The notes under the pieces: generated by a model
The model's database searches: none
Told to the model about the DNA's origin: nothing
Seen by the model: the letters and a program-made list of their open reading frames with translations, nothing else
Shown here: positions 17,282-18,636 of the stretch, in pieces
Layout: every line of letters starts with the position of its first letter
How positions within the stretch are numbered: the first letter of the stretch is position 1
DNA from: a virus
Strand: one strand, 5' to 3'
IMG/VR virus record: IMGVR_UViG_3300000117_000145
Location: 771 to 30,333 of that record
Length of the DNA stretch: 29,563 nt
Program-made: the position numbers and the translations under genes

Positions 17282-17603
17282 GACTTTCTCTGAGAGAATC
17301 AATAGTCGCACCAAAAGTATTAAACAGATAGTTCATGTCAGTGTCTGGGGAAAATCCCATAAGTGTCATGGATTTTTGAAGATTTTTCTTCATCTCCACT
17401 GCTTTTGGATCGTCTGATAATGACAGACGGGCATACATAACTTTTTGTTTTTCTAATAATGTAGATAGTTTATCAACATGTTCCACTTGTTCAGTTTTAC
17501 TCATATGAGGAAATTTCATAATATTGAGATAGATTTCCTCTTGAAGTTTATTAATCTCACGGAGTTCTTCCATGACGATTTCTGACTCGAAAAAATCACT
17601 CAT
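17271..17603 (-). CDS. DUF1825-family protein (cyanobacteria-type)
   Basis: A 110-aa all-helical protein, MSDFFESEIVMEELREINKL. The opening FFxSEIV.EE, the Lys/Glu-rich central helix (EHVDKLSTLLEKQKVMYARL) and a C-terminal MGFSPDTDMNYLFN segment closely follow the plan of the cyanobacterial DUF1825 family, whose function is unknown. That is one of the better hints that the host is a cyanobacterium. It lies between the basic 101-aa gene and gp32, and its stop codon falls in the gp32 promoter region. In T4, gp59 and gp32 are adjacent here. The family call is from memory of the pattern. Confidence 0.7.
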   Translation of the reverse strand: MSDFFESEIVMEELREINKLQEEIYLNIMKFPHMSKTEQVEHVDKLSTLLEKQKVMYARLSLSDDPKAVEMKKNLQKSMTLMGFSPDTDMNYLFNTFGATIDSLRESLDT

Positions 17604-17645
17604 CTACAATCTGCCTCAAAATCTTTTTATAACGGAACATATCAA

Positions 17646-17653
17646 TATTTATG
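17646..17653 (-). promoter_or_regulatory. Possible late box (CATAAATA) before the DUF1825 gene
   Basis: CATAAATA overlaps the stop codon of the 101-aa gene, 43 nt before the DUF1825-type start. It is one mismatch from the T4 late box. Weak evidence by itself; the position is suitable. Confidence 0.3.
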
Positions 17654-17954
17654 AATTGTTCTTTAACCTTTGTTTTCTTTCTCTTGCCCGTTTTTTACGG
17701 GTTTCCCTATCTTTTTTATTTTCCCAATACCGCTTCTTTTCTCTATCTCGTCTAGCTAAAATTTGTTCTTCGGTTAATCCTTTTGCCCATCTTTTCTTTT
17801 CATAATCTGGATTTTTTTCTCTCCATTTTTGACGAGATTGTTCTTTTTGAACTTCTCTAGATGGAAATTTTTCAGAATCTGTAATTGATATGTCTTCTAT
17901 AAAATTAGGTCCGTCAATATTAAGGGCACTGTTAATACCTGATACATTTAACAT
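17649..17954 (-). CDS. Small, very basic protein of unknown function (101 aa)
   Basis: After about 35 residues of ordinary composition (MLNVSGINSALNIDGPNFIE), the rest is dominated by Lys, Arg and Glu in helical register: KWREKNPDYEKKRWAKGLTE, then ARRDREKKRYWENKK and a KKRARERKQRLKNN end. This suggests a nucleic-acid-binding helix. Similar KNPDYEKKRW-type repeats occur next to HNH or other DNA-binding domains in phages, but no such domain is present. It has its own perfect TATAAATA late box 22 nt upstream and a structured RNA element before that. I do not recognise the family. Confidence 0.65.
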   Translation of the reverse strand: MLNVSGINSALNIDGPNFIEDISITDSEKFPSREVQKEQSRQKWREKNPDYEKKRWAKGLTEEQILARRDREKKRYWENKKDRETRKKRARERKQRLKNNS

Positions 17955-17963
17955 ATTCTTTTA

Positions 17964-18040
17964 GTAGGGGTAATATTATTTATATTGTAAAGGCGGGACT
18001 TACGCAAGTCAAATACCCCTACCCGACTTTGCTGCCCGCC
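17964..18040 (-). promoter_or_regulatory. GC-rich intergenic RNA element with pseudoknot topology
   Basis: On the minus strand, directly after the gp59 stop, GGCGGG (18035-18040) can pair with CCCGCC (17992-17997). The loop carries GTAGGGGTA (18014-18022), which is perfectly complementary to TACCCCTAC (17964-17972) further downstream, just before the 101-aa gene start. This gives an H-type pseudoknot arrangement in read-through mRNA. A local hairpin GACTT-GCGT-AAGTC (17997-18010) lies in the same loop. The late promoter 17977-17984 lies within the connecting segment, so mRNA begun there would lack the knot. Function (termination, or repression of the downstream ORF) is inferred. Confidence 0.55.
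17977..17984 (-). promoter_or_regulatory. T4-type late promoter (TATAAATA)
   Basis: A perfect match to the T4 late consensus, 22 nt upstream of the basic 101-aa protein start. The surrounding CAA-TATAAATA-ATATT is identical to an intragenic copy at 19230-19237. Confidence 0.65.
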
Positions 18041-18042
18041 AA

Positions 18043-18636
18043 TTATAAAATTATTTCTTTGAGTATTTTTTTATATTTAAAAATATCTACTTGAAGAAAC
18101 GGTGAATATTTTTTAATCTTTAAGGAAACACACTCCCACACAGGGTCCAGAAGTTTTTTATTAAACCTTTCTCTAAAACAAAATATCTTCTCACAGATTA
18201 ATAAGGTCTCAATGGATATTTCTCCACCAAGGAACTTTTTGAGTATTAGTGGATGTCCTTTGGAACAATTGAAGGCATCCTCTAATTTGTTTTCCGAGAA
18301 GAATTCTTGCATTTGTTCTTTGTACAAGTAACTCAAACTCTGCTGTCGTTTCATCCACTCGGCGTAGTTTCTTTCGCCAGAATTGATAATTTCTCCAATC
18401 CATAAGTTTTCTGGGTTAGTAGATGCAACAAAATTAGATACTAAAAAATCTACGATTTCTTTATCAGAATACTTACGAGAAGTCTTCTCAAACCAGTATT
18501 TGTCGCGTCGTTTGTTAAATGACGCCACACTTGCCCTAGTTTTTGCTCCGTATTTAAAGAAATCGTATTTTGGATTTGTAAAATGATTTTTGAGTGACAA
18601 ATAATGTTGATAAGTTTCAAATGGTGTCACGATCAT
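18043..18636 (-). CDS. 59: DNA helicase loader gp59
   Basis: A 197-aa protein (T4 gp59 is 217 aa). MIVTPFETYQHYLSLKNHFT then KYDFFKYGAKTRASVASFNK and RRDKYWFEKTSRKYSDKEIV line up with T4 gp59 (KYDVIKYNW..RVS...YQKRRDKYFFQKLSEKY). FLVSNFVASTNPENLWIGEI matches FISNLVANQDAWIGDI. gp59 loads the gp41 helicase onto gp32-covered forks, so the closeness to gp32 is functional. The start overlaps the gp33 stop by ATGA. Confidence 0.92.
   Translation of the reverse strand: MIVTPFETYQHYLSLKNHFTNPKYDFFKYGAKTRASVASFNKRRDKYWFEKTSRKYSDKEIVDFLVSNFVASTNPENLWIGEIINSGERNYAEWMKRQQSLSYLYKEQMQEFFSENKLEDAFNCSKGHPLILKKFLGGEISIETLLICEKIFCFRERFNKKLLDPVWECVSLKIKKYSPFLQVDIFKYKKILKEIIL

Follow-up and report, generated by a model that had tools for sequence, protein, structure and literature searches.

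The GC-rich knot that precedes a small basic ORF in the cyanophage window (the whole stretch of 29,563 nucleotides analysed here, to which all coordinates refer) is a member of a family of RNA switches not catalogued before, which are found before many different homing endonuclease genes and which probably keep these genes silent until an internal late promoter fires. We consider it probable that the window element itself, as leader of a mobile cassette of the homing-endonuclease type, acts as a temporal translation switch built from a pseudoknot. The observations that bear on this are the anatomy of the element, the mobility of the insert, the conservation and covariation of its helices P1 and P3 within the family, the position of the promoter and the association with endonuclease-type genes.

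Structure of the window element

The first-pass annotation had described a 6-bp GC stem with a 9-nt arm in its loop, a complementary arm just ahead of the next gene and a late promoter between the two. Inspection of the sequence located all of these on the minus strand, as follows.

18035..18040, minus strand: 5' strand of the outer stem P1, GGCGGG, seen in the sequence; its extension pairs are compensatory (UA/CG/GC/AU)
18033..18034, minus strand: conserved CA, 5' side of the P1-P2 internal loop; second position A or G in the window-type alignment
18025..18032, minus strand: 5' strand of the inner helix P2, GCAAAGTC, with one bulged A; window-type alignment
18014..18022, minus strand: P3 (pseudoknot helix), 5' arm GTAGGGGTA, situated in the loop of P2; relatives carry different yet complementary arms
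18004..18010, minus strand: 3' strand of P2, GACTTGC; window-type alignment, S-SRM01 relative and wider family
17998..18003, minus strand: conserved GTAAGT, 3' side of the P1-P2 internal loop; almost unchanged across the 27 aligned sequences, last position T or A
17992..17997, minus strand: 3' strand of P1, CCCGCC; sequence and alignment of relatives
17977..17984, minus strand: T4-type late promoter TATAAATA, which agrees exactly with both the late motif of T4 and the cyanophage motif NATAAATA
17964..17972, minus strand: 3' arm of P3, TACCCCTAC, at the predicted late start and 9 nt before the ATG

The 5' arm lies inside the P1 loop and its complement outside P1, so that the arms interleave, which is the pseudoknot topology that had been claimed. 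The reported contrast in base composition was also borne out, with G+C at 30 of 49 positions in the P1-to-P1 core (17992-18040) as against about 31% locally. Overlooked in the first reading were the inner helix P2, the mobile-insert setting of the whole stretch at gp59, and the predicted late +1 at 17971, separated from TATAAATA by five nt, which coincides with the first residues of the 3' arm. The motif NATAAATA is the reported cyanophage late promoter (PMC2984593). The ORF begins with an ATG at 17954-17952 on the minus strand, and P3, which in the window stops 9 nt upstream of the AUG, contains neither this codon nor the weak SD-like sequence AAAAGA.

Folding of the window element as a single sequence gave a z of -1.1, which is not significant, and P3 has a competitor in a nested fold whose computed stability is similar; the case therefore rests on comparison. 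An inner hairpin, GACTT/AAGTC, was considered and rejected as it is broken by a recurrent AAGAC variant, and P2 was preferred instead. No Rfam family matched the window or nine relatives (114,776 bases) at gathering score, the low-scoring matches obtained under permissive settings resembled chance, and a tRNA/tmRNA search returned none.

The gp59 3' end as the site of a mobile insert

The element lies on the minus strand in the order gp33, gp59, element, 101-aa ORF, 110-aa gene and gp32.

18998-18633, minus strand: gp33
18043..18636, minus strand: gp59 helicase loader (PHROG 269), its last ~17 codons a divergent copy upstream of the insert junction (by comparison with the empty site in L029)
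17649..17954, minus strand: 101-aa basic ORF downstream of the element, like the C-terminal half of a GIY-YIG-like endonuclease
17596..17651, minus strand: displaced original gp59 3' end, near-identical to the gp59 end of the empty-site relative L029
17603-17271, minus strand: 110-aa gene, PHROG 468
17189-16260, minus strand: gp32

In more than 60 related contigs the site is empty and gp59 overlaps the 110-aa gene by 8 nt, while in carriers of the 101-aa ORF a gap of about 430-440 bp separates the two genes, and more where the ORFs are larger. The stretch with the element lies within a mobile insert located where gp59 ends. Before the element, gp59 closes in a divergent copy of the same codons (window 18043-18095), and the TAA of the ORF comes from the old gp59 sequence (17596-17651), which leads into the next gene. 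This arrangement suggests that the cassette carries its own altered copy of the end of its target gene. As the 3' end of gp59 is split by the insert, an intron was considered, but it was rejected: an intact gp59 end stands upstream, the sampled elements elsewhere are intergenic, and there is no group I or II match in Rfam.

At the same site L023 encodes a GIY-YIG-like protein of 176 aa, and residues 13-101 of the ORF align with its C-terminal part at 74% identity. The ORF has no Pfam or PHROG match and no nuclease domain, and it looks like an endonuclease minus its nuclease half. When carriers of the 101-aa family are compared with one another, differences are found at 0-2 of 43 core sites and at 11-53 of 303 sites of the ORF, and the RNA is therefore under tighter constraint than its gene.

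Copies at the gp59 site that lack the ORF were seen in L160, L164, L170, L175, L111, L121 and L174, with some elements intact and others having a lost or mutated 3' arm. The 3' arm is gone from the HEG-less remnants L111 and L121, and arm and stem are both mutated in L174, which speaks for the reading as a switch. The elements of L160, L164 and L175 are intact without an ORF, which counts against the reading as a switch; perhaps these represent recent loss of the ORF.

Window-type relatives and the wider core family

An exact search of public viral contigs for a 19-nt piece of the core recovered 48 stretches, many of them at other loci and ahead of ORFs of various kinds (GIY-YIG-like, GIY-YIG-like with NUMOD3, NUMOD4-HNH, NUMOD3-containing and basic repeat proteins). 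Alignment of the window type yielded 27 distinct sequences in which the 43-nt core is mostly invariant, and the spacing from the promoter TATAAATA to ACCCCTAC is 5 nt in 27/27. The annotation had named a lack of co-conserved arms in relatives as what would refute the idea; in these 27 sequences the arms are near-invariant and P1 shows compensatory change. As the window-type arm does not vary, its support is one of family membership and not of its own covariation. A blastn search with the window element against cultured phages gave no match, and a cultured relative was reached only through the class B leaders described below and a genome-wide scan for arms. The sole match in a bacterial genome (L154, Chitinophaga) lacked the rest of the element and was dismissed as chance.

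The distribution of the element also bears on the nearby gene 32. The T4 gene 32 leader contains a pseudoknot (PMC3014915) and here gene 32 is the second gene after the ORF, and the element might be imagined as a gp32-type autoregulatory pseudoknot serving that gene. We find this scarcely credible: the element is not in the gene 32 leader but precedes the 101-aa ORF, after which a further gene comes before gene 32 is reached; endonuclease-type genes take it along to loci that have nothing to do with gene 32, and most gp59-gp32 relatives are without it.

A wider search pattern, in which the P1 and P2 strands were fixed, the loop was free and the arms were left unspecified, recovered at least 76 distinct sequences (class A). 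Two decayed copies and one incomplete at a contig end were set aside, leaving 73 assessable among the matches listed; these include window-type sequences and are thus not all independent of the discovery set, 49 being of other types. Among the matches listed, perfect arms of 9-14 nt and a late-promoter-like motif between them were present in 73/73, and the arms comprised at least 21 distinct strings in about five arm families. In shuffled downstream sequences an arm of at least 9 nt arose in ~0.1% of trials, as compared with 73/73 observed among the matches listed, and the arms are therefore more than chance. The first extension pair of P1 was UA in 45, CG in 14, GC in 7 and AU in 1 of the core family among the matches listed; P2 GCAA/TTG, the first P1 pairs and the conserved CA were set by the pattern and do not provide independent evidence. 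A start codon could be assigned to 69 members among the matches listed; in 41 of these P3 ends -1 to +2 nt from it, and in many non-window members P3 reaches the AUG. The downstream genes are for the most part of homing-endonuclease type, and in many relatives they were identified as such by Pfam (GIY-YIG, NUMOD3, NUMOD4, HNH_3) and by PHROG (homing endonuclease). One member lies before gp152 of the cultured Synechococcus phage S-SRM01, where P2 is GCAACTT/AAGTTGC and the arms are different but complementary. Co-conservation of the arms thus extends to distant core relatives, S-SRM01 included, in which arm sequences differ and complementarity is kept.

Two other explanations may be weighed here. 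It could be envisaged that the arms form an inverted-repeat operator at the DNA level, for example a site of endonuclease autorepression overlapping the late promoter, as in the case of I-TevI, which binds such an operator at the late promoter of its own gene (PMC2988022); in the window, too, the 3' arm abuts the promoter. A protein operator would follow its protein, however, and identical arms occur before unrelated endonucleases while one endonuclease family is found with many different arms. P1 also covaries and some arm pairs are G-U, and we regard an operator as very unlikely. The GC stem could otherwise be a transcription terminator or attenuator to which the arm complementarity is secondary, as P1 is GC-rich and in some members is followed by a short T stretch. 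Several members have no T-run (for instance ...CCCGCCTAAATA in L009), P1 is only 5-6 bp with a long loop, and the arms are kept in all assessable members among the matches listed, all of which makes termination highly improbable as the function of the stem.

Class B leaders

A second group of leaders, class B, has no sequence similarity to class A but shows the same topology and likewise lies before endonucleases. Its layout is a stem, CCTGA/TCAGG, with an arm in its loop, followed by a GC hairpin with a T-rich tail, TATAAATA, 4-6 nt, the complementary arm and the ATG. The search pattern named stem and promoter only, leaving the arms unspecified, and gave at least 93 distinct matches. Among the matches listed, perfect arms of 8-12 nt were found in 65/65 leaders before recognisable endonucleases of six families, the family labels being taken from N-terminal motifs that Pfam backed directly in several cases, with some representatives having no match; the remaining 28 mostly had arms of 0-7 nt.

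Strong covariation of the arms, for which the annotation had suggested checking related phages, was found in 20 class B leaders, drawn from the group whose arm register begins four nt after the promoter and aligned after excision of the middle hairpin. In these, 8 of 11 arm pairs were changed on both sides, the covariation score of the arms was 0.460 compared with 0.164 in shuffles and at most 0.108 in slid registers, and 47 cells showed double changes, with 15.1 +/- 2.8 in shuffles.

The class B layout offers one point in favour of an action in trans, in which early RNAs, ended or processed so as to carry the G-rich loop, would pair as antisense RNAs with the start of the late endonuclease mRNA: between the arms stands a GC hairpin that has a T-rich tail. 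The 5' arm is moreover held in a hairpin loop and is complementary to the very 5' terminus of the late mRNA, and in a cyanophage the antisense RNA CfrI is known to be associated with a homing endonuclease gene (PMC2984593). The window element, however, has no clear terminator and sits inside the gp59-gp32 cluster, where termination would be costly, and the cis arrangement is sufficient. We therefore hold regulation in trans to be unlikely, and retain a switch acting in cis as the preferred reading.

Genome-wide analysis of S-SRM01

Of the 35 TATAAATA sites of S-SRM01, 28 are followed by the start of an ORF at a distance of no more than 75 nt. Among these, arms of 8 nt or longer flank 10/14 sites before endonuclease-type genes (HNH, GIY-YIG, homing or endonuclease VII genes) and 0/14 before other genes (Fisher two-sided p = 1.5e-4), the genes having been divided by hand from annotation, protein starts and profile matches. 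Three of the ten armed sites, those of two endonuclease VII genes and gp048, are simple hairpins and not pseudoknots.

The arm sequences of the leaders at 18021, 48503, 51314, 56026, 62477, 77630 and 192486 (L342, L343, L345) differ, two of them sharing 8 nt, as if to avoid cross-pairing within the one genome. The endonuclease VII genes (126148, 142277; L344:26548, L344:42677) have simple hairpin arms of 11-16 nt across TATAAATA, recalling T4 gene 49. The annotated endonuclease starts of gp075 and gp297 (L342-L346) lie upstream of the late promoter, and gp114, annotated as 'translation initiation factor 2', matches NUMOD3 and homing endonuclease profiles.

Comparison with known systems

The regulatory principle is already known. 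In T4 gene e, I-TevI and Aeh1 mobE it has been established experimentally that early RNA hides the start region and that an internal late promoter bypasses this block (PMC3014915, PMC2988022). The closest likeness is to T4 I-TevI (also I-TevII and I-TevIII), Aeh1 mobE and T4 segB, in each of which a homing endonuclease gene has a late promoter within the structure and late RNA is without the 5' half (PMC2988022, PMC3014915). The structures of I-TevI, mobE and segB are, however, described as hairpins that sequester the ribosome binding site, whereas the window element is a pseudoknot in which a 5' arm within a stem-loop pairs outside it, and unlike those hairpins its core RNA is a conserved, portable module common to many unrelated endonuclease types. 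The leaders of T4 gene e (lysozyme), soc and gene 49 likewise silence early read-through and are bypassed by an internal late promoter, but these are hairpins before phage genes, in contrast to the pseudoknot before mobile genes seen here; the simple hairpins across TATAAATA at the S-SRM01 endonuclease VII genes are nearer to this type. The T4 gene 32 mRNA also has a leader pseudoknot that acts in translation in a T4-type phage, described in 2010 as possibly the only viral pseudoknot in translational autoregulation (PMC3014915). That pseudoknot nucleates gp32 binding for autoregulation, while elements of the present family precede endonuclease-type genes and contain a late promoter.

No earlier report of the pseudoknot form was found in the part of the literature searched, and as Rfam also gave no match, the pseudoknot form, its mobility and its conserved core appear new. 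These findings suggest that several unrelated types of cyanophage homing endonuclease share portable RNA timing switches, and that selfish genes could thereby live inside early operons without premature expression. Two sequence-unrelated classes reach the same design, a pseudoknot with an internal late promoter. S-SRM01, being cultured and having several copies, makes the switch testable, and the element offers a route to unannotated or misannotated mobile genes.

Proposed mechanism

In the proposed mechanism, read-through RNA from gp33-gp59 would carry both arms. P1 and P2 would fold first and present the G-rich arm in the apical loop, and the complementary arm, once transcribed, would pair with this loop as P3, forming a stable helix beside the start region that keeps the ORF untranslated. 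Later, the gp55/gp33 late polymerase would fire from TATAAATA within the element and start at the first residues of the 3' arm. The resulting late mRNA, ACCCCUACUAAAAGAAU-AUG, would have no 5' arm, could not form the knot and would be translated. As P3 of the window includes neither the AUG nor the SD-like sequence, occlusion would be steric, and P3 would have to inhibit initiation although it lies 9 nt from the AUG. We infer that timing would be set by which RNA is made when, together with a block of the ribosome by P3. By analogy with the T4 and Aeh1 systems, repression of read-through RNA and translation of late RNA only are most likely, and the late-specific expression put forward in the first-pass annotation is supported both structurally and by this analogy.

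It is conceivable, though doubtful, that the core (P1, the CA/GUAAG internal loop and P2) is a true sensor, a riboswitch or protein operator, which picks between an apical hairpin and the pseudoknot. An apical hairpin around the G-rich loop is possible in many members and uses the same 5' strand as the pseudoknot. Were the core a sensor, mobile cassettes would be equipped with a bistable switch under regulation, and not just with a passive lock that is off early. A hint of a bistable RNA comes from class A loci such as L351, L355 and L373, where the 5' arm is also able to fold into an apical hairpin, its loop GGGG or UGGC-like, which is incompatible with P3.
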